Shown: piece by piece, positions 25,914 to 53,318 of the stretch
Layout of the letters: every line of letters begins with the position of its first letter
Numbering within the stretch: position 1 is the first letter of the stretch
From: Lineus longissimus
Taxonomy: Eukaryota; Nemertea; Pilidiophora; Heteronemertea; Lineidae
Assembly: GCF_910592395.1 (NCBI RefSeq)
Contig: NC_088309.1
Location: 16,620,599 to 16,684,598 of the forward strand
Reading direction: 5' to 3'
Length of the DNA stretch: 64,000 nucleotides
Made by a program: the position numbers and the translations under genes
Notes under the pieces: generated by a model
Database searches by the model: none
Seen by the model: only the letters and a program-made list of their open reading frames with translations
What the model was told of the DNA's origin: nothing

Positions 25914-27713
25914 TGAATCTGCATGATGTGTGTCGTCTCTGTGGCTCAGAAAACATACAAAAGAATAGCCATCACCGGCATCAGCCCTGCCAAAAGGAGA
26001 AGTTCAAAGTCGCTATAGAGAGAGCTCTCGGGTTTGACGTGTGCATGGATCATGAGAATTATCCCCCATACATCTGTGAAGCTTGCAAGAGGAAACTGGA
26101 AAGATGGTGGCGGAGTGGACACTTCCACGTTGTTTTGACGTTCCTGGAGAAAGTTTGTGGAATATCAATGAAGCCAAAGCCATAGGTACTGAATGCGGAT
26201 ATACTTTAGTGGAAAAACAGACTGGATTGTTGTTTCTGCTAATGGGGGAAAACGGTTTCCCTGAGAAATGTTTTAAAATGAAAAGTGACAGGACTTGGGA
26301 AATGTACATATATGGACATTTGATAACAGACCCAGTGCTGGATATCTCTTCAGCCCATGTCTTAGATTCTAAGGAGGACCTTAGCAAGCTTCTCAATTTC
26401 CTGAGTGACTGTCGTCCTTGCCCTGGACTTGGCGGATTTTCTGACTTGTGCCGCGACCTTTCCCCAAATGGACTGGCTATATTCCGGCGACCAGATGGAA
26501 CCCTTGAAGCAAAGGAAGACGGGCAACATACAGGCAGTAGTTCAATAGTCTGCCACTTAAAGTGTGAACTTTATGCCCCTCAAAATGTTGTTCGTTGCTC
26601 AGTCTGCACCCAATACAGGCCCATCTTATGTGCAAAACAAGCTGCATTTTCCCAGAGAACCAGGCTTACTCCACGTGACCACATCCTTTCCTCCCACACC
26701 AGAAATGATAGGCTCTCATCTGGAGCAATGAAATGTAAACTGACGGCCTTACAAAAGGAGAGACATTATTTGAAACGGCATGTGAAAAGCTTGAAGGAAA
26801 AAGTTCAAGACTTGTTGAAAAAGGGAGATGTGCAGGTGGCAGATTCACTTAACAAGTCCCTACTGCAAGTGATGGAAGACAATACCAGTCAAGTTCTCCA
26901 AAGTTTTGAGGCTGGTTCTCCCATGGAACTGCTCTGGGAACAGCAGCTTTTAGCAGCAAGAAAACCTAGCAAACAGATGAGATGGCATCCTGCTCTTATA
27001 CGGTGGTGCATAGCACTCCATTCAAAGTCGCCTGCTGCATACCGGATGATTGATGGACCGAAGTAAATTTCTATGTTTACCACATGAAACCACTATCAGG
27101 GATTATACTTCTTTCACCAAGTCATCAAGCGGTTTCAATAACGATGAGCTAGAAAGGATAGTGAAGGACCACCTATCAGACATGCCTGATTTCAAGTTTA
27201 ATGTTAGCTTGCTCTTTGATGAAATGAAGATAAAATCGGGACTAGTGTACTCTGCAGCTACTGACGAACTGCTAGGATTCTGCGACCTTGGTGACATTAA
27301 TGATGAGATAGCACAGTTGGTACGGCAGTGTGATGAAAGGGATGATACTCCTACTGTGGCTACACATGTTATAGCCTTCATGGTCCGAGGCCTATTCAGC
27401 AATATGGAGGAGACATTTGCTCATTTCCCCTGTACTGGTTTCAGCAGCCATCAGTTGTACTGGGTAGTATGGGAGGCTGTTGGTCGACTGGAAAGTGTTG
27501 GATTCTACGTCAGAGCATTTATATCAGATGGAGTATCTCCAAATAGAAGATTTTACCGCCTACATGGAAATGACGCACCAACTTACCACACAACAAACCC
27601 ATATGATCCTTCTCAGAAGATTTACTTCATTTATGATCCTCCACACTTGATGAAAACCACAAGAAATAATTGGGAGAATAGTGCATTCCACAACAAAACA
27701 AGAAATCTGATGG
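25914..27713 (+). pseudogene. P-element-like transposase, three frames
   Basis: The first part, after tttctcag, starts MNLHDVCRLCGSEN and has a second Cys pair (YICEACKRKLERW), a treble-clef/ZAD-like zinc-binding pattern rather than a THAP domain. The frame changes near 26,100. The long middle part to 27,066 has CxxC pairs, a coiled coil (KRHVKSLKEKVQDLLKK) and the helical block HPALIRWCIALHSKSP. After a second shift near 27,055 comes the P-superfamily catalytic core: LPHETTIRDYT, LLFDEMKIKSG with the first Asp, GFSSHQLYWVVWEAVGRL, FISDGVSPNRRF and YFIYDPPHLMKTTRNNW. Open sequence ends at 27,713 before gtatgt. The C-terminal third of a P transposase (with the last acidic residue) is missing, so the copy is truncated as well as frameshifted. 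The nearest relative in this window is the minus-strand gene at 42.1-45.3 kb. Confidence 0.88.
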
Positions 27714-35304: not shown

Positions 35305-35411
35305 GACTTCATTATTTACCCTTATGTCTCTTCCATTATCTCTCCATGGTCTTTACCATTATGTCTCCTCCATTATCTCTACAGAGCATGGTCTTTACAA
35401 TCATGTCTCTT
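35305..35411. repeat. TCTTTACCATTATGTCTC tandem array, left part
   Basis: Degenerate ~40-bp units (atgtctcttccattatctct, catggtctttaccattatg) end at the insertion point of the giant element. The array continues right after it (52,351-52,425) and again after a second insertion (53,320-53,460). The last 7 bases, gtctctt at 35,405-35,411, form the left target duplication. Confidence 0.8.
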
Positions 35412-35742
35412 CACAGGAAGTTGTACCTAGGGGGGCCGGAGGCCCCCTGGGGCTTGGGGGGCCGAAGGCCCGAAGGATGGAAACACTTTTTATGTCATGT
35501 TGAAAATGCACTACCGTATACGAAGCAGATTTTCGCAAAACACGACCTCACAAAAACACTCCATTTAGGACACAAGATCAAACTTTCTCGCACATAAATC
35601 ATACTCTACACGATCTATGAACACAGAGCATTAGTATGCCACACTGATTTTGTAAAAAATCTTTCCTCTTCACTCCGAAATTGGAGCATTTATCAGAAAA
35701 TCGAGGCGCGACTTGCAGCTTTCAAAAAGTCAAGTTGTAATC
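35412..35742 (+). repeat. Left terminal inverted repeat of giant element
   Basis: 331 bp from cacaggaagttgtacctagg to caagttgtaatc. It contains a GC-rich stem region (ggggggccggaggcccc at about 35,431). The matching copy is 52,027-52,350. Similarity stops sharply after gtaatc on both sides. Confidence 0.92.
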
Positions 35743-35891
35743 GTGGGGAAAACCTTATTCGTCTATAAATAAAATGAATGTGATTGGCTGTTGCTTGAAA
35801 GACGAAATCCCCGTGTGATTCCCTCGACACGTGATCGGCACGTGTGGATAAAAATGCGCCAACATTTTAAATCGAAGCAAGTGCTGTAAAA

Positions 35892-38800
35892 ATGTCCGAA
35901 TTGAATGCAGAACAGCTCCATGCTATGGAAATAGCAAGAACTGGTCACAGTCTGTTGCTTACAGGTCAATGTGGAACCGGCAAGACATTTTTAATGCAGT
36001 AAATATCAATGAACAATGACATGGTACTTACATGACTTAGGAAAATGTGATTCCAGGCAAGTTGATCACCAGCTCAGCACTATAATTCCTCTACCTTCAC
36101 TTCCATCAATGCATAATACTAGTATACGTTCCTGGGGTAATATAATGTACATTTACTTGAAAGAGGCTTTAATTATATCAATTTATCAACTCCAGAATAT
36201 ACAAATGAGTCACTATGACCATGGAGGTATTATAAAGACTCATTCTCCTGTCTGGAAGGGTTTGTGGACCTACACCACAGCAAGCAACAACCTATCCACC
36301 AAAGTTCCCGGCTATGTTTAAGATATATAGTACATATAGACACACCATTAGTTTCATGATGCACAGCAGGTCACATTAGAGGAACACAATTTAGACCAGC
36401 GCTCAAAGTTCGCGCCTAAATGGTCGCATATGCGACAAGAAATTTCATAATGCGACCAGAAATGTCCCCGTACTCGCACACCTGCGAATTGATTTCTTAC
36501 AGTTTTTGCGAATTGTTTTGACAACATGCGACTGAACTCCCAAATCACCCATTTTACAAGTCTGCGAGTGATTCAAACAATAGCGATCGTATTCCGTAGA
36601 TTGCGAACATATTATTGAAAATGGTGTGGCGCGCGATCGTTTTTGATTTTGGATTGTAGACCCCACATCACTCGCTTCCCGCTCAATCCGATCATCGTCG
36701 ATAACGCCCAAGACGGAGCACGCAGCACTACAGCGCCACGGCACGGAATTGAAAGGTAACATAACTCATTAACATAATTCATCCACTCCCTGAGGCTGTC
36801 AACACAATGGCCACTGGTGACGATCGCCAGCGCAAGCCCCAGCAGCGAAAGCTTTCATTTTTGCCATGGTTAGTGTGCAACAGTAGTAGCATTTACCCTA
36901 AGTATTTCTTGATTAGTCATCCATTTATCTCTTGTATTGCATGCCCATCTGATATGTGACGTGAGCTGGACTACAACTGAGCAGAGTCGAGTTGCACTGA
37001 GATGACCCCGTCCCGTCATTGATTGACGTAATGTTTTTGAATCGTCGGCGCATCAATCTCAGCTTCTCCCGGGTCCCTTCCAAACATGTATTCCTTGAAT
37101 TAGGCCTACATTGCCTAGAACATATGATATTAACTATGCAGATAAAATTGGCCTAGTAGAGTTTGATTTGTCACATGGAAAGATGTCACCAGGGCGTGGT
37201 AGCACGTGGTCGTCAGGATTTCCCGCCGAAATGTTTTACACTGAACTTACCCGCAACGGGCCGGCGTTTGTTTCACTTACTCCTATTACTTCTCTACTGA
37301 GGGCAAATAAAAATGATTAGTCTCGTTTGAAAAATAAGGCAGACTTTTAATACTTGCTGATGCTGTTAAAGGGAGACTCCACTCATTGAAAAAATTTGAA
37401 TTTTTGTTCGCTGATGTAAAAAAAATCTGACGCCTAATATTGCAGATATCAATTAATTTGAATGTATTAAGGATATTTCTAAATTTCCAAATGAGTGAAG
37501 TGTCCCTTTAGGGCAGAGGCTACCTGGCTGTTTTAACCATGTCGGCTTGTCACAATTAAAGAGGGCGCCACTAGGTCCGACATCCTTAAAAAAAAAATTT
37601 TAATTTAATTTTTTTTTTAAATTGTGGATAAGGACGTACGTTCTGAGTGACTGTTATGTCACCATCAGAACGCAAAATATGCCTGGGGCCCCAGAGAACG
37701 GAAAAAGGGGTCAGAATGCCTTAATTTGAAGCAAAAAAAACCATTTTTTTTTTTTTTTTAATTTTGCCGCGCGCGCACCCAAGCGAAAATCCGACATGGT
37801 TGTTCATTGAAATCCCAGGGAAGACCCTGTAGTACAGCTGCTGTAGTACAGTACAGTTGAACCTTCCTTGCATAGTGTAATCTATCGTTGTTATGTCCAG
37901 GGGATGTCTCAGCTGATTTTGATCCTGAGAAAAACACAATTTGTTTTAGTAGAATTCACTGGCTACCGGTGCGATAATGCTGTCTTTTTTGTTTTCTTAT
38001 ACAGTACTAGACCAGCAAGAGCTGTAGGTCAAGTAAGCCTACCTGATGGCATACCACACAAAGATATCGTCATCGATTATTTGGAGGAGGATGGGTCAGA
38101 CTCCGAGACCATTACAGATGAGAGGGAAATGGTCCCCCAGCCCCGCCCGCCCAGGCCTCCACCAGATGCCAATGACAATGAACCAGCCCTTAAAAAACCG
38201 AAGACTAAAGTCAACTACGATAGTAAATTCAGAAAGGAGTGGCTGAAGGAATTCCCGTGGCTCCAGTGGGAACCAGACAAGGGGACGGACGGTCTAATGT
38301 TTTGCAAGGACTGTCGTGCTAATCCAGCGCTTGCCAGGTCTAACCTTGGGTCCACTGCCGGATGCGACACCCATAAGCATGATACCTTGGCCAAGCATAA
38401 GATAAGTCGTGCTCATATTTTGTGCAGAGATGCATGTCTGAAAAAGACATCCAAAGCTGCGTTGCCACAAGTTTTCAATCGTCAGGTCACCAACAATCAG
38501 CTGGAAGTTGAAAAACAACTAGAGGTTAAGTTCAACATTGCCTACAACATTGCAAAAGAGGAAATACCCTTCACTAAGTTTAAGCCATGGCTGTTTTGTC
38601 ATAAGAAATGTGGGCTCCCGATTAACCCAACATATGATAATGATATCAAATGCGCTGAATTTGTGGGGGCTATAGCAGACCACATGAGAGAAATTCTCAA
38701 TGACCAGTTGAAGAAGGTTAGGTACCTCTCGATTATCATTGATGGTGAAACAGATGTCAGCAACAAGGAATGTGAAATTGTCTATGCCCGCATCCTGGAG

Positions 38801-41800
38801 TTGGGATGGCCTGTAAATCGACTGGTCGGGCAGCAGGAGGTTGAGGATGCCCATGCAACAGGTAAGTTAAGTTACCATACTAGGTGATCGATTACACTAG
38901 GTCACCCATTCGTAAACACAAGCAATGAAACTTATGTCTCCTCAGTCACTAGGTGCACGCAGTTGTAAAACAAACGAAGTTACTAATTTCTCTTCACTCA
39001 ATCTGTCTACATCTAGGCCTATACAATATTCGAAACTAACAATATTAGCCCAACTCAATGATTATTTTTGTTATAGTGAAATTTCAACTCATGTTCACAG
39101 GTGTTCTAGAGGCAGCAGACAAGACTTTTCAAGACCTAGCCAGTTATGAAGACAACGCCCAACCTAATGTTGATTGGAAGGAAAAGTTGGTGTGCATGGG
39201 CTCAGATGGAGCATCGGTGAACCTTGGACACCGGAATGGTGTGATAGAAAAGCTGAGGCAACAGGCAGGACAGCATGTCATCCCATTTCACTGTATGGCG
39301 CACAGAAATGGTTTGTTAAATCAACTGTTCAGCACTGACTGTGAAGTCTTCTCTGCTGTATCAAAATACTCCTTGCTCAAATTACCTTTTCAATTTCAGG
39401 TTAGAATTGGCTGTCCTGGTCTTGCAGCGAGACGTCCCGATGGTGAGGGATATCTACGACACACTCTTCCTGGTATGGAAAACTTACCATTATAGCACAA
39501 AATCTCAGAGAGATTTGGAAAAGCTTGGCAAAGAGCTTGGGGTTAAAGTCTTGAAGGTACAGTACTTGTCTTTAAATGACTTTTTAGCACACATGTAGGA
39601 TTCGTCAGTTGCTCTCCCTGATGTTCATATTATTTAACATATTGATTTCAATTCATTTTTCAGGTGTCAAATGTTAAGGGCACAAGGTGGCTGCCCCATG
39701 TTCAACGTGCACTTGATGTGTTCATGATGAAGGAGTCGGGCACAACTGGCCAGTTCAATGCAACGTATGTGCACATGGAACATCTGGCAGCCACTCATCC
39801 AAAAGCGGACATTTCTGGCAGGGCAAAGAAGGCAAGTTATACTGGTGTGGCAGTAATATTCGGTGAGATTATATTAATAGCTTCTTGTGCCAAAAGTATT
39901 AAGGTATCTTTAGTTTATTTCTTTCAGCTTCTCAAGACAATGGTAAGCCTGGACTTCGTGTTTTTCGGCCATTTCCTTGCTGATGTTTTTGCGATCATTT
40001 CCTCTCTAAGCTTATTGCTGCAGAGAAATGATCTCATTCTTCAGCAAGCGATAATGGCGGTAAAACACATGATCCAGCAATTAGAGGACCTAAGGACCAC
40101 CCCAAAAAGGAGGGGGAACATGGAAAGATTCCTGAATGATGACGCCACTCAGCAGGGAGAATTCCAGGTATGAACACGGTCAGATAATCGAAAATACTTT
40201 TGTTGGTATAATTTCTATTCCTTGACATGTGATTAAAGATATTAATTATTTTGAAAATGACATACAAAATAATTGATATTCAATCATCTTCTTCAATCAA
40301 CTTCATATTTCTTCAGGGAATCAAGTTGAAGGGTGACATTGCTCTACTGATCGAGGAAGGTTTTGGACATCAAAGGCTGGCAGCTGGGGTTCGAAATACC
40401 ATCGACATAGCTCTGCGGGAGATCAGGAATCGCTTCTCTGCCCTGTTAGGGGAGCCTCTTGGCGACAACATCACTGATGAGTCAGCAGCTGCTGTCAGAT
40501 GTCTCAACATGGTATTCAACCATGATACATGGCCATCAGCTGTCAATGACCTAGAAAGCTATGGATATGAGGAGATGGAATTCCTGCTACGCTACTTTGT
40601 TGATTTGCTGCAAAGGTAAGCTCCATACTGCACCACTACGGTACTACTAAATCAAATTGGTGTCATTCTGTCTCTGAAGGGATCACTGACATTGTGCCAA
40701 GAAAATGTTCTTATTCAAAGTGATCATTGCATTACACATCTCTTTTTACTTTTCAGGAACGGTTGCCAGGTAGACGAGGTCCAGGGTGAATATTCAAGGG
40801 TTAAAACATTGGTTAATGGCCAGTTCATAGACAAAGGTGTCAGTGCCCTCTGGCACATGATGCTGATAAAGGAACCCTACCAGGGAGATTTCAAGGTACA
40901 TATAGCTGCCCTCACATACATAGCACTTACTGTTTCACTAAGCATATCCAAATGAAAAAATTAACCTGCAGGTGGCAGAACTCAGGCTATTTGCAATTTA
41001 TAAGAAACGTTTAACAGAACAATTCCATTTGTAAATCAGAATAATTTTAGGGGCTTAAATCAATCCCTGACTATTCTTACACAAGATAACCAGAATGCCA
41101 TCAGTAGGACTGGATGTTCCAATCGGCATTGACATTTGATTTTCCAAGTCTCTTCTATTTTTACTAATAGATATTTCTTTTCATGTATTTTAGAACATGT
41201 TGCATTTGGTGGAGATAATGCTGGTTATTCCTATATCCAGTGCACAGTGTGAAAGGGGATTCTCTGCACAGAGGAGGATTAAATCGGATGACAGAGCTGG
41301 CCTACATGTTTCAACCACATCTGATCTAATCCGTATAAGTTTTGAGGGGTGCAGCCTGGCTGACTTCAATCCCAAGCCTGTCATCAGAAAATGGTTTAAC
41401 AGCGGACAGGGGCCGCGTAGGCCAAATCTGTACCGCAGCTGGCCAGCAATAGTTTGCGTTGGTGAAGACACTAACATTGCTGTATCAGATGATTGAACTG
41501 TTAATCTTGATTGACTGGGTTCATGGTGTCCACTCTGGTTAGGATAATCATCTGGAAATCAGATAATAAGAAAGACAGTAAACAGTATGAGAGAAGAAAC
41601 ATACATGTATATAAACATTATCAGAATTTTTAAGATTTCACAATTTAACCTGTTGACTGCCTTGAATCTGAAATCTGTAAAAGGTGTAAGTTAGTAAATT
41701 ACAAGAAATTTGAATAGTGACCTTAAGTCCAAGGTTTGACCTGTTTTATTGTACAACTTGTTTCTTTGGTGAGTTCATTTTATCCGATTTGCCTCTTTCA

Positions 41801-44800
41801 CAGTTATTGGAATGTGAAAAGGAACTTGAATCAGTCTTACTCTGGAATACAGAATGAGATGAATAAATACAGTTATTTTCATATATTTGGTCTTGTTCTT
41901 CATCTGTTATATGTTCAACTAACATCATGGCAAGACTTACCTCATATGCATATTAGTTGACGTTTCTTTTCGAGGCCCAGGTATTACGCCAGGCAGTAAA
42001 AAAAATCGGCTCCTAAATATTGCAACTCAGCTCCTAAAAGTTGGAGGTAAGGAGCTGAAAATTCAGATCCTAATATTGCAACTCAGCTCCTAAAATTTGG
42101 AGGTAAGGAGCTGTGTGCTCCTAAGTAAAAATTGCCAGCTTCTTGCTTTTCCAGGTTTGGTTGAGAGGACAGGGTGTTGTGGCGTTAAACGGAAGAGCTC
42201 GTGCTCCGCCAGCATTTGACTTTCTCGATACAGTGACGTGGCCAAGGACGATGGTATTGATACCCGGGCCATACTGTCTAATCGTGGGGTTTGTGTTTAA
42301 TCCGTTGAGAATGCCCCTTTGCTGGCAAAAGATATTCTCGACCACATCAGAATTGAAGTAACCGGGGACGATTGACACTCCCAAGCGTGGTATGACTCTG
42401 CGACACAGTCCTGTGAATCCTGTGATGGCTGAAATAACATCCTCTCTCGTCTGGACAGTCATGGCATTCTTCTTACAGCAGAGAAGTTTGGTTGATGCTA
42501 TATCCGCCTCCCACGTTTTGAAGAAGGTCGCCACATCATCTAGGATATTAAGTCTTGGGTCAGTCACATCCCTGATTGGCCGATTGACGTCCGTAAATAT
42601 TTCTACCACTTTAGACCTCTGTTTCAGTAGGTTGATGGTTCCACTGACATCAATTTCATTTTCCCCTTTTGACTGTGCTTTAGCCATCTGATAACGCTCC
42701 ATCAGATGGAGCATATTCTTATCTAGTACGTCACATGCTAGTTTATTGCGCATCTTTGAAGCTGGTGTTATTTCCACGTGTTCCTTAGTGCGAGCCTTGT
42801 GATATTTAAGCCCACTGTGAACATTGAACTTAAATGCCGCTTCAAAATGTTCCCAGACGATTTCCTTTCCTCCGAGAACCAAGTAACGTCCAGGTGATCC
42901 CCTGTGTTTTGCCTTCGATGACTCAATGTTGTTGCGAACTTTCTTGATGACATGTTTGATATCCTGCATGATGCTGATGTATCCTTCAGACTTAAAAATA
43001 TTCCGTATGGTAAATTCAGCGGCTATCTGGTCAACACCACCAAATAAGATGTTAGCGAAAGACCTGTTAGTTGAAGCTCCATCCATGAGAGTGTACTCGA
43101 CTGAAAACCCATACTCGTCTAATATATCCACTGCCTCCAAGAATATTTCGTATGCGTTTGCCGTATCTGTTGCAAAGTATGCGATTGGCCAACGGAAGCC
43201 ATGAAATCCTTGAAACACTAACTGCAGGGCATGTGTTGCCATTTTTATCTCCATTTTGCCATTGACGATCGTCCTTATATCATCATTAACTTCTCCCACG
43301 TTGATGGCACCGACGAGCTGAAGTTGCGAACCTCTTCTAACAAACTGATATAAAAATGTATCATGTATATAACGAGGCAAATAAAAGTTCAGTGGAATGT
43401 AACTTTTAGGACGAAATGGACATCATTTCCAATACTTCAGGCTCTAGTATTTTAGAGAAGACCATGGCTCCAGGATTTTGGCTAGAATTGGGAATCCTAA
43501 AGCAAGCTCAAAAACCTTTATTTCTAAGAGTACAAGCATGTTCCAATTATGGAAAAATTACAACCATTCATGATGTCGTCTTCATAATGCTGTCTTAGGT
43601 TGATTGTTTTATTTACCTGTAAGTCATCTTGAATCTGCATCTCATCGAGAATGAGACCCCCATGCAAGCAATTCCGGATGCACCTGGAAAGGAAAGAAAT
43701 GGGTGTATCATCTGAAGCAAGTTACTAAAAGGCCTATATCGATTTGGATTTGTATCTTAACATTTTTCAGAGAGCACAGTAACTGTACTTAAGTTAATTT
43801 CATCTCATTCAAACTAAGTAGCCTAAGACATAATGCTGAAGACAACTCCTGTATTTGGGGAACTTCACAATGTACATCTCTTCTTGATGAAGACCTCCAG
43901 TTGGACCACAGTGCGAGTTGGACCCACGAACATTCATCAAAAATTAATTCAGTATTTACCCTGTCTTTTGGCTTCTTTTTGCATCCATTGTAAGTGTTGT
44001 TTGTTGAAGCCAGCTTCCTGTGTGATGGTATTTTTGTAATAACGGAGAAGACGCTGTGAGGGAAGGACCAACATCTCACTCCCCTTCAACTGGGAATATC
44101 CACGATTCGACGAGCAATATAAACCGAGCATGACAATTATCAGGTTTGGGTCCCATCGTCTTGTTCTCGGGTCTTTATTGTTACAGTTATTTGCCTGGGA
44201 CTGAAGTAGAACATTTAGTTTTGAGGGAGCGTGGGGCATTACAGTTTCGAGGATGGCCTTCATGTCCATGCTGTCCTCTTCTGTTAGTTCAATAGTTGGA
44301 TTGAACACATAATCCTGCTCACGCGGCTCCGGGACTGCAAAGGCTTCAGTCTCTATTGCGTTGATGTTTCGAAAAACTTCCTCTAGACCTGGTGCTGGTG
44401 GTAAGTTTTCTTTCCCGCTTTCGAGCATCTTTTCCCGCCAGACCCTTGAACTCTTCAACTTTCGGCAAGAAAGGCACACATCCGATGTTGATAAAACAGA
44501 AAGAATCTCCTTACAATTGACCGAGCTTCTTGATGTGCACAAACGTTGCGTCGACAATAAATAGCCTAAGCACAGTAAATTTGCATCGGAATAGGGAAGT
44601 AAACAATCAATCTCTAAATCGGCCGCCTGTAACTGTTTGCCCCTACAAAAAAAGTTCCAGCCGGTTTCTCCATAGGAGATGTCGCAGTTGTCGGGACCCA
44701 CTTGACATCTCAAGCTCCTCTTTTCCACCACGGCACAATCCTTTTCTTTGACACGTTTTTCAATTCCGTAATAAATGTACACACTCCCTTGCGACTTTCT

Positions 44801-47800
44801 TTTAACCTTCATCTTTGGAAAGATTCGAGACACCATCTTCGCGAAGACAAGCTTGCTGTGCCGAAACGAGGACTTTTGAGAATGGTGCTGCAATCGTAAT
44901 AATAATAATAATAATAATTGGAATAGTTGACAATATCAAATATGTGTACAAATACTAGTATGTAAAACAAGGTAGTCTCTTTAAGGTAATCGATAGGGAC
45001 TACCTTGTGGGTTCTCAAGAGTACATTCAGATTACGTTACGATGAGCACCACCTCATACCGGTGATCTTACTTCCTTCACAAGAGCAGTGAGGTGCTTTT
45101 TGTGTTTTTGCCTTAAGCAAAAGCTCATTGAGTTTTTGCCTTAAGTCAAGTTTACACCTTTCTTATAGTCAGGAAATATCGGAATCATGTTAACTATATC
45201 GTAGGCAGTTTTTAAAAGCTAACCTGTTCGTAATCCGTGTACATGTCCGAAAAGTATATGTGACTGTCGTCAGTTTCTTCGCAAGCCTTGTAGTTGACCA
45301 CAATCCTGAAAAATAATAACAATAAATCATACGTTTACAACGTGATGGCATGTGTTACAGAAAATCGAACGTATGGAACGACGCCAGCAAATTTGTGGTT
45401 GTGACATTGTCCTCAGAAGACATATATGTGACCAAGGATATCCTTGATGTGACCTGTTTGGTCCAAAAACAATTGATGAAATTAGCTAATCCACTTATTC
45501 ACTTGCTGAAATGCAAATATTTGAGGCGTCGGCTACTTATATTTGTACCAATATTTAATCTTTCCAGGAAGATTGCCGAGGTGTTGCGTGATAGCGGAAA
45601 AAGGGTTGCCATTACAACGTCGAGTGGTATGGCGGCATCTAATTTTCGGGATGCAATGACAATTCATAGGTGGACAGCCATCAATGACGGACGATTCACA
45701 AAGCCCGAGATCGTCCAGAATATGGCAACTAAAGATGGGTTTCTGGATGCCAGGAACAGAATTAAAGAAACTGATGTGTTACTGATCGACGAGGTTGGCA
45801 TGCTGTCAAGAAATATCCTGGAGACAGTCGAGTTTCTATGCCGAAAGGTAATTAGTGCTATCATCGTCACCATTCGAGAAACCATTGAACATTGATTCAT
45901 TAACTTGGCGTTAATTCTAAGGGCTTTACTGAAGGTAGATAACGCCAAGTTAAGAGTACACCCAGTGTTAGCGACCAAATTTGTTTTGAACAACCAGGCC
46001 CTGGTTATAATTCAATTGAAATTATCTTCCAGGTTAGAGGAACTGACGTGGTCTTCGGTGGGATGCAAATCATAGCCAGTGGTGACTTCAAGCAGCTTGC
46101 TCCTGTCCCCAATATGCTTGTTGACGACGATGGCAGTTATTGTTTGTCTTCTTCTATATTCGAACAAATGTTCCCCCACAAGATTAATCTTAACCAGGTA
46201 AGGATTTTTCTCATAATGTGTGATGGTTCAAAGAGTGTTCTTCATGTGAAGTAAATTTCAGGATGTGCAAGTTACCATACTATAACATTGTTGGCGAACA
46301 TTGTTTTCTGTCCTGCCGTAACATACTAGTATTACTCTATGGATGGGCTATATAAGAAGTCACAACACACCCACCAGCAGAACTTTTATAGCTGTCCATT
46401 GTCGCTTTTACAATGCTCAAGAGCTAATTTGCTTCGTATTTTCTTTAATAAAGGTGGTGCGACAAAACGAGCCCGATCTGATCAAGGCTGTAAACGAACT
46501 TTGTGACGGCCAGCCATCAGCTGAGACTGAGGAGCTTCTGAAGGAGCTTGGGAGACCGCTCTCAAAAGAGCCTGTTAAACTATTCGGCACAAGGAGTGAG
46601 GTGGAATTTAACAACATGCGTGGTTTAGAAAAGATGAGAGGAGAAATGAAGTTATATCGAGCGAGGGACTGTGGTGAGTATATTATCATTTAGAACTAAT
46701 GATATGGCCCATGATATGGCCAAGTTATCACTTCAAGTGTCTCACATTGATTGTAATAATCTTGAGTCTTGCCCGAAGACCGCTAATAACGGAAGGTATT
46801 TGATATTCAAAATCATTATAATGTAGTAATCCGGTTGTGACTATGTCCTCGAATCGGACGAGCAATAAGCCAAGTCAATCGGAACATACATCCTGCATGC
46901 TGGATACCACTATTGATATTGAATTCTGTCAGTGTCAGATCTTACCCGTTCATTAAAAGCATCTTACCCACATTCCCAAAAAATGCTAATTTAAATTAAT
47001 CATACAATAATGATTATGATAATTTTCTTTAACAGGAGAAACACGTCTTCTTAAAAAATCACGAGCGGCAAAATTGCTGTATCTCAAGGTTGGAGCCCCT
47101 GTCATCATCATTCGGAATATCAAAGGTGAGCGGAATCACATGAAAATATAACTTAGCTTGCGTTGTAAAGGCCGACACGAAATGACGACTGTGAGTTTTG
47201 CGAGATCAACGTTTACTGAAGGTGTTCACACATTGACGATTTGGAAAGCTCACCGCAATCCCCAACGCAGGTTTATTTGTAGTACCGTACACCCAACACT
47301 GTCATTTATTTAATTCCTTACTGTCATTTATTTAATTCCTTACAGGTGGTATAACCAATGAAACAAGAGGCATCATCAAGAGATTAGATGAAGATGGACC
47401 CATCGTAGACATTCAAGGCAGGCTTATTCATTTGGAGCAGGAGATGTTTGACTTCTACGACAGGAGAGAGGGAAAGTCACGGGCTGTACGGTGGCAGTAT
47501 CCGTTGCTTTTGGCCTTTGCGGTCACTGTACACCGGGCACAAGGCTTGACTCTTCCTGTCGTGGAAGTCGACTGCTCCGGGTTTTTTTACGGCCGGACAG
47601 TTAGGGGTTGCCATCGGACGTTCCGTCACAAAGACTGGTTTGAGAATAATAAATTACAATAGCAGGTACGGGACCCTTCGTCATAAACCAGAAGTATATG
47701 AATACTACGCCGAAATCAAAAACATGCAGCCAAGACAAGACCTGGAATGCTGTAGGCAGACAATCGAAGACGACCCCCTTGATAACGACACAGTTCGCCG

Positions 47801-49441
47801 TGGAAGGTGAGATTGAATTATCATTATCAATCACATTAACTAATCACAAAACTGAAATCACTAATTTTGATGAACATAAAGACACTAAAAAAACACGATT
47901 ATAGATTGATTTCCTTTCCTATGGTGAAATTGCATGCTCTTTTGATTATACCAAGCACACTAAGTAACCCATTATCTTATTATATTTCTATATGAATTCC
48001 GCCCATCTAAAACATTGTATTATGATAATTCATATATCTTATGCTCATTTGCAGCTACGAATGGACGCCTCCGGAGAGACCAACCGGGCACGTTGCTGCC
48101 GAGACAATCGAGTCTCCCTACAATCTAGATGAATTCGTAACTACTTTGGATCGGCCAGCACTATCGGAAACGGCTGCTATCATCATGGAAGCTAACAGTG
48201 AGGCCCTGCATGGTTTTACCGCTACATGCTACTCTAAATGTGCCGAAATCATCAGAGGATCGATGCGACGATGCGACGATGCGACGAAAGCGTGGACAGA
48301 CACATTGGCTTTTTGTTCATCGTCTGAGTTTGTTGAACTCGTTGAGACTTTATTCTCATCGGGTGAAGAGGAGTCGCGAAAGGATGCGATAATGAAGTTT
48401 TCAAGTAAACTTTTACTGTGGTTGTTCAAACAAAGCATCAAGTCAAAAGCAGAAAGAGTTGTAGCTGGAGGTGCAGCACCGTCTGTGGAGAACATTACCA
48501 TTTTGAGCAAAGAAGCAAAAAGTAAAATCCGATATATTGGAGGCGCAACACTCTGGCGAACAACACAGTGCGCACGAAGATTATCAGCGACGGGTGATAA
48601 GATTTCGTAGTTAAAGAACTTTAACTACCTGAAGGGCAAGACTTTAGACGCGCTGAGAGTGACTGAGGAGGACGTGCACAATGATACAATGGACGATGAC
48701 ACTCTAGAATTCATAGATTTTAAGCAACAGGCCAGCCATGGGCTATTCCACATGGGAGACAAACTTTTCGCCTTTTTCTGTGACTTACACCTTCGACTCC
48801 TGCCCTTCCTAAACAAAGCAGCTCTTGATAAACACAGTACGAACCTTCACCAGGTAATAGACAATACTATAGCTGCAGACGACAATCATTTGGTGGCCTG
48901 GTTTGATGTATTTTCTGGTGTGGACCTACCCCTTCAGGTGACGGAACTTGAAGACGACATTGTAACCACTATTCAGCTGGACATCTTCAATGCGGTTGTG
49001 AGCCATTACACGAAAGTTTGCCTACATGATGCTGCCCAGATCATTAAAGAGGCTATTCCCAGAACAAAGAAGTTAGCCCTTAGGAACAAAGTTGCGGCCC
49101 AAACGGAGGGTAAGACGTGTAAAAGGAAAGGAGACCAGGAAGAGGAGGATGTGCAACCATCTATGTCTTCAAAACCTAAGAAGCCACTAATGGATGACAG
49201 CTCATTCAAATGCCCAATCTGCCACAAGGCATGTTTGGATGAATCTGACGTTTTGAAGGACTCGGATAACAGCATCGGCTGTGATATGTGTAACAGATGG
49301 TTTCACTGGGGTTGTGAATCTATATGCGGACAAGAACCTTTCCTCAAGTCACAGAACACGTTTTGGTCATGCTTGATCTGTAAAACAAGCAAAGGGAAGG
49401 GAAAGGGGAAGGGGAAGGGGAAAGGGAAGAAATTAAGGTAG
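35892..49441 (+). CDS. PIF1-family helicase fused to a PHD finger, multi-exon, damaged
   Basis: Exon 1 is 35,892-35,998: MSELNAEQLHAMEIARTG, then Walker A GQCGTGKTFLM, cut by gtaaat. Exon 2 (45,568-45,847) joins in phase and gives ITTSSGMAASNF and the Walker B LLIDEVGMLS. Exon 3 (46,033-46,197) has ASGDFKQLAPVP (motif III). Exon 4 is 46,454-46,673 with VVRQNEPDLI. Exon 5 is 47,036-47,125 with KVGAPVIIIRNIKG. Exon 6 is 47,346-47,808 with AFAVTVHRAQGLTLP (motif V). Near 47,590, at a run of seven T, the frame shifts; motif VI (GVAIGRSVTKTG) then follows in the other frame. Exon 7 from 48,053 adds ~430 aa, broken by a TAG at 48,608, and ends with a C4HC3 PHD finger (CPIC...CDMCNRWFHWGC...WSCLIC) and a (KG)n tail. 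Role: ATP-driven 5'-3' DNA unwinding; the PHD finger may read histone tails. The frameshift sits in a homopolymer and could be an assembly error; the stop suggests decay. Confidence 0.85.
36001..36806. other. Intron 1 sequence; probable left end of nested hAT
   Basis: From about 36,397 (cagcgctcaaagttcgcgcc) there are repeated tgcgac/gtcgca and tgcgaatt blocks to about 36,600, typical of hAT subterminal repeats, upstream of the hAT first exon. A clear 8-bp target duplication was not found. Confidence 0.45.
36807..41496 (+). CDS. hAT-superfamily transposase (ZNF862-like), nine or so exons
   Basis: Exon 1 (36,807-36,868) has the usual short basic start MATGDDRQRKPQQRKLSFLP. Exon 2 (38,005-38,861) holds an acidic linker and a TTF/BED-like zinc domain (WLQWEPDKG, MFCKDCRANP, CDTHKHDTLAKHKIS), then LSIIIDGETDVSNKE with the first catalytic Asp. 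Exon 3 (from 39,101) has VCMGSDGASVNLGHRNGV, the second Asp, and FHCMAHRNGL. Exons 39,400-39,556, 39,664-39,831, 39,928-40,167, 40,317-40,615 and 40,757-40,895 follow, with RWLPHVQRAL. The last exon (41,194-41,496) has the hAT dimerisation block IPISSAQCERGFSAQRRIKS. One intron (39,832-39,927) uses a GC donor. The exon 3/4 border does not join in phase with an obvious donor. It otherwise looks nearly intact, and it lies within intron 1 of the helicase gene. Confidence 0.88.
41985..42120. repeat. Subterminal repeats, probable right end of nested hAT
   Basis: ggctcctaaatattgcaactcagctcctaaaa and gcaactcagctcctaaaatt ggaggtaaggagctg occur as two near-copies with inverted ggagc/gctcc blocks, ending gtgctcctaagtaaaaa at 42,130. 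This is typical of hAT 3' ends. It touches the stop codon of the minus-strand P-like transposase, so the hAT may have inserted into or next to that gene. Confidence 0.45.
42121..45306 (-). CDS. P-superfamily transposase inside helicase intron
   Basis: Read on the minus strand. Exon 45,306-45,223 (after tttttcag) reads IVVNYKACEETDDSHIYF. Exon 44,880-43,960 (after gattgcag) has CxxC-type zinc pairs (DVCLSCRKLKSSRVW), an acidic linker, then RRWDPNLIIVMLGLYCSSNR and LLRYYKNTITQEAGF. A 68-bp exon (43,684-43,617) gives GGLILDEMQIQDD with the first catalytic Asp. Exon 43,336-42,121 has GFRWPIAYFATD, VEYTLMDGASTNRSF (second Asp), MQDIKHVIKKVRNNI, and near the C-terminus VVENIFCQQRGILNG with the P-type Glu. 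All parts match P/THAP9-type transposases in order. Joins at the small exon are not clean in phase, so one or two small indels are possible. No THAP domain is seen; upstream exons may be missing. It is divergent from the copy at 25.9-27.7 kb. Confidence 0.85.
44896..44921. repeat. (TAA)n microsatellite
   Basis: cgtaataataataataataa just upstream of the large transposase exon, inside its intron on the minus strand. Confidence 0.9.
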
Positions 49442-49565
49442 AGTGTGCGTGTGTGTGTGCGTGTGTGGGGGGGGGGTGCAGCATCGAATAGAATCGGAGG
49501 AACATATTATGTGCTTTGAATATCTGAGTTATTTGTGGACGTGGCTTCTCTAGGACGTTTTTATT

Positions 49566-49650
49566 AGGTTTTCGTTTTTCTCAAAAAACGAAAACCTATT
49601 GCTTTCCTTCCTTCCTTCCTTCCTTCCTTCCTTCCTTCCTTCCTTCCTAC
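49566..49650. repeat. AGGTTTTCG hairpin and (CTTC)n microsatellite
   Basis: aggttttcgttttt at 49,566 pairs with aaaaacgaaaacct ending at 49,597 around a 4-base loop. It is followed by a ~45-bp run of cttc repeats. Downstream to about 50,370 there is no recognisable gene. Confidence 0.8.
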
Positions 49651-50376
49651 GGATTTTTGTGCAGAGCAAATCTCAGAGATGGTGATAGCTGTAGATGTGG
49701 AACTTATTTCATATGATAGGCCCAAGTCTGAAGTTGATCCTCCTTGCCCTAATTACGAAATTCATTGAGGGGGTCGGCCGCTAGGGGGCGCTAAGTGAAA
49801 ATCTAATAATGGCTTTTTCTCCATAATGCGCACTCCGATTTGAACGAAACTGCTTTCAACTGATGCAGAATCTTGTTGCGCATAAAATATTTAGGGTGGC
49901 AAAATTTGTCAACGATAGATGGCGCTGACTGAAAAAAGGGGGCAAACACCAAAATGGTAAAATATCGGCACTGCGAGCCTTTGAGTTTATTCTAGTGGCA
50001 TAGAACAATGCCTCCTTATGATGCCCAGAGAATATATAGGTTTTGGTTGCGATCAGATATTCAATATGGCCTCCAGACCAGCCATCTTGTTTTTCTTACA
50101 AGAGCTATAACTTCCGAATGCGAGAACATCTTCTTCAAAATAAAAAGTCAACAAGTCAAATCGAAAGCATCAAGAGATTCATGGTTTTATTCATGAGATA
50201 ATTATACATAAATACTGTGGGTATGTGACAGTTGCCTTTTTAGACGTAATACATTAGACGCATCATCCCAACTGTTCTTTGGCCAACTTTTTACTCTTAG
50301 CACAGTCAGAATTCACTCTGCTCATTCGAAATCCTGTTAATTGACCTCAAGCACAACAAAATGACGGTTTAAAGGG

Positions 50377-50688
50377 GCACTGCATTCAATCGCGAATCGG
50401 TTTCAGCACGACCACCATAGAGGGAGGCGCCTATCGGCTAGGAATGAAACTTATTGCCATTGTTACCTGTATTAAGTCTATTAAACTTTCTTCAGGAAAG
50501 CATAATATCACATTAGAATGTTTGAAGAAGCTGTGTGGAAGCTTTGACGGCAATACATCACTGAACAAACTGCATTGCTGGGTATTTTAGATACGTTTCC
50601 TGTAGTTCCATCATTTTACCGATGGGCACCTCCCTCTACGGTGGTCGTGCTGAAACCGATTCGCGATTGAATACAGTGACATTTCATA
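50377..50688. mobile_element. ~310-bp MITE with ~60-bp TIRs
   Basis: cactgcattcaatcgcgaat followed by cggtttcagcacgaccacca at the left end is mirrored by the reverse complement of about 50,622-50,688, with three or four differences over ~60 bp. The centre is AT-rich and non-coding. Target duplication unclear. It is nested in the 3' part of the giant element. Confidence 0.85.
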
Positions 50689-51009
50689 TTTTGACATGCA
50701 GACAAAACGCACGTGTTTACAACACTACGTAGATCGCTTTTTCTCCTATATGCTACATCCGATTGAAATGGGATTGGTTTCATCATGGAGGATGCAGAAA
50801 TAAGAAGGCGCACAAAACATACTGGTCTGTGTCGCACTGAGCTCCGAAAGCCAAATTTATTGAGCAATAGCCCACTGGGTTCTGGTGTGAACATCAATCT
50901 CTCCATTCTCCTCTGACATGTTACATCATGTGACCTCCAGGTGCCAATACCAGTTTCCCCAAACGAAAACCGTCGATCTGGCTTTGCCAGTTCTAGTCTT
51001 TATACACTA

Positions 51010-51187
51010 CAGTAGAACCTCTCTAAGCGGACACCTCTCTAATAAGGACAACCTCTCTATTAAGGACACTAGTTTTGGTCCCAAATTGGTTATTTCCATT
51101 CAATTTGACCTCTCTGATCAGGACACCTCTCTATTAAGGACAGCACTTGTCAGTCCCGAGGGTACCCTTAATAGAGAGGTTCTACTG
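51010..51187. mobile_element. pogo/Tigger-like MITE, 178 bp
   Basis: Starts cagtagaacctctct and ends agagaggttctactg, with TA on each side (51,008-51,009 and 51,188-51,189). Internal ctctctaataaggaca blocks repeat several times. The CAGTNGAACCTCT terminus and TA duplication are the hallmark of pogo/Tigger elements of the Tc1/mariner superfamily. Confidence 0.85.
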
Positions 51188-52026
51188 TATTACCGGACAC
51201 TTTTTTCCTGTTTCACAACCGACTGGGATACAGATCTGAAACACAGTGTTAGAACTAACGTTACATGTACTTCGTAACTTCTTCTTACTGACGAGTCAAA
51301 GGAGAGGATCGTTCTGCCGCATATCTAACGTCAAATATCACCCGTGCAACGTAAGTGCATTACATAAAAAACATTTTATGTATGAACACATGTATGAATG
51401 CATGGCGTCACAACTAATACGTCTAGTGGATCAGGTCGTCACTGATAGTGTTAGATTCAGCACTCAATGTATACTAAATATATATATATATATTCGTACG
51501 AGGATAAATTAGGCACAAATTGATATTGCATGCCTATAGCTGCTACCAAACACTCTCTTTAAGTTTGAGGGGCTGAGGGTTTGGATGAAACCACTTATAT
51601 TTCCAGCCTGACAAGCCTTGTCAGGACATACCACAACCCTGTAAATCGAAATGGGTTTGTGGTTCAAAGCAAACTCTAAGTTGCATAGCATGCTTGACAC
51701 GCAACTTTGATGCGTAAAACATGTTTATATGTGAGATTTACCAGCCACATGCGTCCGATATCACGTCCATTGTAAATACTAAGGATAACACTACTTGTAG
51801 CACCGCGTGGCAATATCCCGCATTATTTAAATTTCCCGCAACATTCAACTTCAGGAACAAACTCGTATCCAGGTTATAATTTGTCAGACAATCAAATACT
51901 AGTGTGTGGTGAGATGAATACCTGGAGTCGAGATAACCCGTTTAAAATTGATATCCAATTATTTTCTTTCGCTGGCTCATGTGACTGAATGACGTCACGA
52001 TGTATTAATAGAATAAGGTCTTTCAT

Positions 52027-52350
52027 GATTACAACTTGACTTTTTGAAAGTTGCAGGTCGCGCCTCGATTTTCTGATAAAAGCTCCAATTTCGGAGCGAA
52101 GAGGAAAGATTTTTTACAAAATCAGTGTGGCATACTAATGCTCTGTGTTCATAGATCGTGTAGAGTATGATTTATGTGCGAGAAAGTTTGATCTTGTGTC
52201 CTAAATGGGGTGTTTTTGTGAGGTCGTGTTTTGCGAAAATCTGCTTCGTATACGGTAGTGCATTTTCAACATGACATAAAAAGTGTTTCCATCCTTCAGG
52301 CCTCCGGCCCTTGAGGGGGCCTTCGGCCCCCCTAGGTACAACTTCCTGTG
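52027..52350 (-). repeat. Right terminal inverted repeat of giant element
   Basis: Reverse complement of the left TIR from gattacaacttgac to ggtacaacttcctgtg. It differs from the left copy at scattered single bases and in the GC-rich patch near its outer end. The right target duplication gtctctt follows at 52,351. Confidence 0.92.
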
Positions 52351-52428
52351 GTCTCTTCCATTATCTCTCCAGAGCAAGGTTTTCAAATTTATGTGCCCTC
52401 CATTATCTCTACAGAGCATATGCCGTGG
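52351..52428. repeat. Target tandem array, middle part
   Basis: gtctcttccattatctctcc, agagcaaggt and ccattatctctacagagcat continue the array seen at 35,305-35,411, then it is interrupted by a second insertion. Array units resume at 53,320. Confidence 0.8.
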
Positions 52429-52429
52429 T

Positions 52430-53318
52430 CACACTGGGGTTTTAACACGAATTGAATTCGAATTAAAACGTTGATACGTATTGGGGCGTCACACTCAATT
52501 CGGTTCATACCGATCTCAATCCGCTTTAACCAACACGGTTCTTAAACCGAATTGAATGCGAATCAGCTAATCCGAATCAACGAAACCGTATTGAGATTTC
52601 AAGTGTGACGCGCTTGATACGAATTAAGGTTTTCGATCGCACTGCGCATGCGCCCGGCGCATGGAAAGTGACCTTTGACCGCGGGAACTAGTGCTCCGAA
52701 CTAGTTAACTGATGTATTTAAATGATCTCATTAACTCAAATCGTTTTTCGTTATGCCATAGTATAGGGAAAAATCAACTCCCTTGCACGTGACTTAAATT
52801 TCCATTTCCTGGCAAGGTATGTTGCCGCCGGTTCGTTGGTCAAAGGTACGCTGGTCAGCAACATCGTCGCGGCGGGGTTTTCCCCGGTTTTGGCCTCGTT
52901 TTCGAGGGCGAGGCCGGGATTCTCCGCTAATAGCGACGGTGGTGTTGACTCGCTGAGGACACTCCTCTTTGACCCGAACTTTGGCAATAGGCATGGCCGG
53001 GAGATGGAAATGGTCAAGCACCTTACGCGATTTTAACTTGTTAATAATGACTGTGTGATACTGTGATATTATATACTTATATGTGTTGTACTCGTAAATT
53101 TTATTCTCCCATATGGGAGGTTAATAAATAATAATAATAATAATAATAGATGGCGCGTCGTTAGTATGCATTGAGTGTGGCACGTTTTAAACCAATTTGA
53201 ATGCGTATTCCGGCCAGTGTGACGCGACCGTTCTGAAACTGGATTAATCAATTCGTATTCCGGAGAGCGCTCTACGGAATTCGGTTTCAATTCGCATCCA
53301 GTGTGAACACACCATAAG
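52430..53318. mobile_element. Non-coding insertion with CAGTGTGA-type inverted ends
   Basis: Left end gtggtcacactggggttt followed by aattgaattcgaattaaaac mirrors the right end, which reads ggtgtgttcacactggatgc then gaattgaaaccgaattc on the other strand. Several internal copies of aattgaatgcg/cgtattccgg are present near both ends. The centre holds a weak open stretch (52,790-53,036) without recognisable motifs and a (TAA)n run at 53,128. It interrupts the tandem array, which continues on both sides. Confidence 0.6.

Follow-up and report, generated by a model that had tools for sequence, protein, structure and literature searches.

We analysed a stretch of 64,000 nucleotides from the nemertean Lineus longissimus (the window, whose positions are used below) and found that positions 35412-52350 are one copy of a P-superfamily cut-and-paste transposon with the termini CACAGG...CCTGTG. 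As read from its sequence, with the protein folds taken from prediction, the element combines ends of about 350 bp, 7-bp target-site duplications, a P-type RNase H transposase and a PIF1-PHD helicase. The helicase gene is located on the plus strand in seven exons, with exon 1 just inside the left end and exons 2-7 in the right half. The transposase gene, with four exons by inference, is located on the minus strand and lies wholly within helicase intron 1 (Table 1).

Ends, genes and nested insertions

The inverted arms at 35459-35745 and 52024-52310 are 97% complementary with a spacing of 16,278 nt, and the element is flanked on both sides by GTCTCTT, in agreement with an earlier note on this DNA. 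The note had called the repeats nearly identical; the whole ends (1-349 versus 1-340) share 93.4% identity with gaps and are less alike than claimed. When the flanks are joined without the element, a 42-bp tandem array becomes continuous, as the note had also stated: Tandem Repeats Finder gave a score of 185 over the junction at period 42; taken by itself, the left flank scored 125 and the right flank gave no repeat. To the right of the element, some 0.9 kb of other sequence (52420-53310) interrupts the array once more before array-like units resume. GC-rich short palindromes of the GGGGGGCCGGAGGCCCCC type lie near the element ends (35430-35475) and differ between copies.

Both reading frames are open in copy L009, which encodes a helicase of 904 and a transposase of 751 amino acids with GT-AG introns and is the only one of the five long copies free of lesions in both genes. 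Relative to L009, the window copy carries a stop, a 1-nt insertion and 6 deleted nt in the helicase gene, and 20 nt in all are deleted from the transposase gene. The spliced L009 helicase matches PIF1 at 9.9e-29 and Pif1 2B at 7.3e-7, while the best single exon piece reaches 8.2e-10 for PIF1; this rise upon splicing argues for the proposed introns, among them the one with the transposase gene inside. A C-terminal PHD finger, weak in copy L010, scores above the Pfam cut-off in three of five scanned homologs (P0047, P0050, P0051) and below it in P0048. Hence, the gene content given in the earlier note, a PIF1-PHD helicase opposite a P-type transposase, was recovered; the RFX-type domain and the position of the transposase inside helicase intron 1 go beyond it.

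The spliced L009 transposase contains the P-type RNase H catalytic core (PF21787, 1.3e-18) with the catalytic D, D, E and the D(2)H motif (DEM, DGAST, QDIKH, SDVVEN). The catalytic positions in the homolog profile align with 6p5a, and a modelled homolog aligns with this structure over 293-748. The GTP-binding insertion domain PF21788 matches 4 of 20 homologs and not the element's own protein. A THAP domain was matched neither among residues 1-339, with E values allowed up to 10, nor over all 751 residues at 0.01. THAP is usual in described members of the P superfamily; we take it as not defining, because the superfamily rests on the catalytic core. In its place, a 57-residue piece of the element's own protein matches the RFX family at 24.6 bits (cut-off 27), and in a model of homolog P0001 (residues 1-82) 75 residues superimpose on 8zjr and 1dp7 (RFX5/RFX1) at 1.8-2.0 Å. 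An RFX-type winged helix in place of THAP is thus predicted by the model for the homolog, and is likely for the element. Three other P-type transposases of the same genome were scanned and none has THAP; two of them (L042, L043) show zf-AD matches under the cut-off at the N-terminus instead, which suggests that the DNA-binding module may be exchanged repeatedly within the P superfamily.

Alignment to four other long copies resolves the window copy into 35412-36396, 42132-49564 and 51181-52350. The two stretches in between are absent from all four, with a few bases of the host element lost at each, and without them the window copy measures about 9.59 kb. The hAT-like insertion sits in helicase intron 1, where it takes the place of the 3' end of the transposase gene; it is a later guest, because the other long copies lack it. 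The giant 17-kb element of the earlier note was therefore rejected, since its size is due to nested insertions and its two-ended long relatives measure 9,637 to 9,685 bp. A 60-bp inverted pair (93%) lies at 50378-50678 within the second insertion.

Table 1. Features of the window copy (window positions) and other places with element ends in the genome
Feature	Location	Strand	Remarks
Target-site duplication, left	35405..35411		GTCTCTT
Left terminal inverted repeat	35412..35760	+	starts CACAGGAAGTTGTACCTAGGGGGG
Helicase exon 1	35892..35998	+	Walker A GQCGTGKT; donor at 35999
Nested insertion, hAT-like	36397..42131		~5.7 kb; C17orf113-type zinc finger, Pfam match under cut-off
Transposase last exon	42121..43344	-	DGAST, D(2)H motif, E; 3' end runs into insertion
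Transposase third exon	43617..43683	-	first catalytic D (DEM); approximate bounds; 1 nt deleted vs L009
Transposase second exon	43960..44887	-	most of RFX-like domain and helix-turn-helix region
Transposase first exon	45224..45244	-	MYTDYEQ, start of RFX-like domain; inferred splice
Helicase exon 2	45568..45847	+	
Helicase exon 3	46033..46197	+	
Helicase exon 4	46454..46673	+	
Helicase exon 5	47036..47125	+	
Helicase exon 6	47346..47806	+	1-nt insertion relative to L009
Helicase exon 7	48055..49441	+	middle domain, PHD finger at C-terminus; contains one premature stop
Second nested insertion	49565..51180		~1.6 kb; not in 4 other long copies
Right terminal inverted repeat	52011..52350	-	terminates CCTGTG
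Target-site duplication, right	52351..52357		GTCTCTT
Copy L009	C16:8908073-8917757		9,685 bp; both ends
Copy L010	C17:2402394-2412062		9,669 bp; both ends
Copy L011	C17:2497666-2507302		9,637 bp; both ends
Copy L012	C7		1.1 kb; both ends
Copy L013	C16		1.1 kb; both ends
Copy L014	C6		long; one end within fetched piece
Single end	C20:8112962		

Other copies in the genome

The earlier note had suggested searching the genome with the end sequence. In 391 Mb (30 contigs) the left end matched 24 places, among which six copies, including that of the window, have both ends (four long, two of 1.1 kb); further places have a single end. Transposase and helicase exons occur together without the hAT in all four other long copies fetched (L009, L010, L011, L014). 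Moreover, five of the six two-ended copies are flanked by perfect 7-bp duplications at five different sites (GTCTCTT, GTGACAG, CATAGAG, GCCCAAC, CTTCAAA), so that the duplications recur as the note had envisaged. The exception is L011, whose right flank is rearranged. Its left flank is 98.4% identical to that of L010 over 2.8 kb. To its right, this flank reappears as an inverted copy (822 bp in the piece fetched), after which the sequence returns to the L010 right flank. Both copies lie in a 98% segmental duplication on C17, about 95 kb apart (L052-L055). Because of the common left flank and the inverted flank copy, L010 and L011 probably go back to one insertion that was afterwards duplicated and rearranged. 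The inverted flank copy also recalls aberrant P-type end reactions.

The note had regarded gene-less copies as a possible argument against the element. The two 1.1-kb copies, in which about 0.45 kb from the left end is combined with 0.65 kb from the right end, are internal-deletion derivatives with the same ends. Five places at C13:11.3-13.0 Mb (L018-L022) match end positions 68-287 at 86-88%, with the part 294-340 inverted; in the 9.9 kb fetched for each, no match to the transposase or to the helicase was stronger than E 0.7.

A transposase gene wholly inside a helicase intron, in a region where nested insertions are common, could also have arisen by chance, if a P element had landed in an intron of another, unrelated element that carries the helicase and owns the long ends. 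In L009-L011, however, inverted pairs of at least 40 nt are found at the outer ends only, the two 1.1-kb derivatives retain only these outer ends, and the same gene order returns at C3 and C20, and helicase exon 1 with a transposase at C12, next to transposases that are mostly 34-48% identical to that of the window family. Chance nesting is thereby largely refuted, and we consider it very improbable.

The gene pair in diverged families

At C20, C3 and C12, a helicase exon 1 that is 47-56% identical lies beside these diverged transposases; at all three loci it is located 3' of the transposase gene and runs in the other orientation. The transposases reach 67% identity in one stretch of 42-43 residues. 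Two of these loci (C3, C20) represent further families with the order helicase exon 1, antisense transposase, helicase. C3 holds the complete set, with exon 1, the antisense transposase and counterparts of exons 2-7 with PHD at 25-52% identity, where the parts corresponding to exons 2 to 6 are almost contiguous and lack the introns of the window family. It has inverted ends of its own (322 bp, 98.8%, starting CACAGGCCCTTGAG), and its frames are broken in places. As one of its ends is truncated, the copy shows no target duplication; two short relatives, located on C11 and C19 and read at their ends only, carry the 7-bp duplications ATCAAAC and GTCAAGG. At C20 the transposase is followed by a long frame, which we take to resemble a DIRS-type element, and 7.4 kb further on there is a helicase piece with 46% identity; ends were looked for at this locus and not identified. 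Paired matches about 660 bp apart with 71-74% identity to the C3 end were seen at C2:16728533, C9:10313224, C9:5612610, C6:8515155 and other places; to judge from the one end read, which starts CATAGGCCCCTGAAT, they probably form a related family of short elements.

As a control we used 19 places with a P-type RNase H domain (20 were listed, and one of two adjacent C8 places was omitted) together with a list of PIF1 places for which 100 of 291 candidates were scored, so that some PIF1 places may be missing. All seven transposase places of this clade, namely five near-identical copies plus C20 and C3 (three families), lie at most 7.5 kb from a PIF1 match, while 11 of the 12 remaining P-type places are more than 20 kb away from one among the scored candidates. 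The helicase as a stray neighbour was rejected on this basis. The twelfth control place, near 27125, lies 8.8 kb from the element's own exon 1 and outside its ends. There, about 8 kb to the left of the element, a plus-strand frame of 265 amino acids contains the RNase H part (27125-27562) of a further P-type transposase of the ordinary kind.

Among the best 8000 candidates scored in the protein searches, at least 45 transposase homologs were found at E up to 0.001, many of them metagenomic, with 33-50% identity in Pinctada, Haliotis, Tegillarca, Sinanodonta, Mytilus, Mizuhopecten and Mercenaria. The helicase has at least 16 relatives at 1e-15. The Saccostrea cucullata protein P0047 (894 amino acids, 35% over 99%) carries PIF1, 2B and PHD above the cut-off, and Haliotis rufescens has homologs of both proteins (P0017, transposase; P0049, helicase). 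For each of these two Haliotis proteins the longest contig is given as 8,980,177 bases, so that they probably come from one contig. When viral and prokaryotic contigs were scanned with the transposase alignment, 45 and 62 pattern matches were obtained, none of which was confirmed. In the passages available from the pearl-oyster genome paper, PIF1-like helicase domains are listed among transposon-related ones without a link to P (PMC9646362).

A tree of 28 transposases falls into two clans (split support 100/100). The first holds three database proteins along with seven further P-type transposases from this genome; the second (n = 18) unites the window family, C3 and C20 with proteins from molluscs or metagenomes. 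Within the second clan C20 and C3 pair at 95/62, and the window family groups with 13 mollusc or metagenome proteins at 82/88; support for these inner groupings is moderate, the C3 and C20 sequences are incomplete and row P0030 has a long branch. Since the window family groups with these proteins and apart from C3 and C20, the association with the helicase is probably older than the inner splits of the clan. The shared gene order of the other families likewise marks the pairing, as far as sequences tell, as old.

DNA transposons are able to capture genes, and the function of the helicase is here a prediction from its domains; it might be a passenger that was captured once and has no role. Against this stand the open frame of 904 amino acids in one copy, recognisable collinear helicase homologs in deeply separated families of the clade, and the tree, in which, at the moderate support given above, the pairing seems older than the splits. 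We regard a passenger as unlikely.

Proposed mechanism and comparison with known systems

Overall, we consider the window element, with a probability of roughly 85%, to be a decayed copy of a P-superfamily transposon of the cut-and-paste type, an autonomous element with two genes that encode a PIF1-PHD helicase and an RFX-type transposase. Since distant relatives in the same genome are built alike, the two genes probably move the element jointly. The transposase would grip the long ends through its RFX-type domain, cut the element and, as in P-element biology, join it to target DNA across 7 bp. The helicase may be a dedicated accessory acting on DNA, which could unwind the ends once they are cut or joined, or remodel them, and drive repair of the donor gap by copying, and its PHD finger might tie it to chromatin. 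This full scheme, in which the helicase remodels the ends or the strand-transfer product, promotes gap copying repair and uses PHD as a tether, is put forward tentatively; that the helicase has some role in transposition appears to us easier to accept. We lean slightly towards the view that the element belongs to a separate, ancient P-superfamily lineage of molluscs and at least the present genome, in which an RFX-type winged helix replaced THAP and the PIF1-PHD helicase became a fixed, needed partner. If so, end unwinding or donor-gap copying would be run by the element and not borrowed from the host.

Several observations weigh against this interpretation. The RFX match falls to 18.3 bits on the full 751 residues, under the Pfam cut-off, Pfam finds RFX in none of the 20 aligned homologs, and the N-terminus of the modelled homolog is about 15% identical to that of the element. 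The PHD match of L010, scanned by exon, is weak (E 0.02, 15.3 bits, cut-off 24), and shorter mollusc gene models such as Haliotis P0049 have no PHD by Pfam. The C3 and C20 copies are damaged, the 6.1 kb fetched downstream at C12 contain no match to the helicase, and at C13:15831196 counterparts of helicase exons 2-7 are present with no exon 1 or transposase in the 5.4 kb fetched upstream. The adjacency of the genes was read in the Lineus longissimus genome only, and the role of the helicase is inferred from its domains. The ratio of nonsynonymous to synonymous polymorphism (pN/pS) among the five long copies ranges from 0.42 to 2.79 with 1 to 10 synonymous changes per pair, a scatter by which selection is neither supported nor excluded.

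Helitrons have no inverted ends and make no target duplication. The element described here differs from them by its inverted ends and 7-bp duplications. PIF1-like helicases are reported as typical of Helitrons (PMC4067079, PMC4289320), which would allow the helicase to mark a rolling-circle element that gained inverted ends. The long inverted ends, the 7-bp duplications and the complete P-type transposase speak against such an origin, and among the scored candidates the PIF1 places in frames of at least 1000 amino acids match the N-terminal helicase part at only 25-35%, although two of them match 79 residues near the query end at 42%. We consider it exceedingly improbable.

Among the open-licence PMC papers listed in our literature searches, the 20 shown of 752 in one of them included, none links P-type transposases to PIF1 helicases or RFX domains in its title or abstract; Repbase and Repbase Reports lay outside this scope, and a record may exist there. 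An element of the P type with its own PIF1-PHD helicase would offer a direct route to what a helicase adds to cut-and-paste transposition, and in the same system it could be asked whether the helicase promotes copying repair of the donor gap. The exchange of THAP for an RFX-type domain would indicate that the end-gripping module of P-type transposases is exchangeable, and points to a possible link between transposases and RFX-type domains. RFX1 and RFX5, with which the predicted winged-helix DNA-binding fold is shared, are transcription factors and not transposases.

The Drosophila P element and THAP9 share with our element the P-type RNase H domain with D, D, E and the D(2)H motif, inverted ends and internally deleted derivatives (PMC7776569, as far as its passages were available). 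The P element differs by its 31-bp ends, 8-bp duplications and THAP domain, compared with ends of about 350 bp, 7-bp duplications, an RFX-type domain and a PIF1-PHD helicase here. According to the same passages it needs no helicase of its own, its transposition leaves 17-nt single-stranded overhangs, and the donor break is repaired by host pathways with the Bloom helicase. Inverted ends with 7- or 8-bp duplications are a trait of the P superfamily, to which our element conforms. The earlier note had presented the long ends as new within the superfamily, which we rejected, since passages on Galileo from Drosophila describe inverted ends of 0.5-1.2 kb and mostly 7-bp duplications (PMC3688188, PMC4168063). 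Galileo differs in its THAP domain and its preference for GTANTAC-like sites, neither of which was found here (the five duplications listed above do not follow that pattern), and these passages do not mention a helicase. AcademH and KolobokH are likewise DNA transposons that code for helicases (PMC10045372 and PMC9587614, in the parts seen). They belong to other transposase superfamilies, and the duplications reported for AcademH in PMC10045372 are 9-10 bp long, compared with 7 bp in the element from Lineus longissimus.

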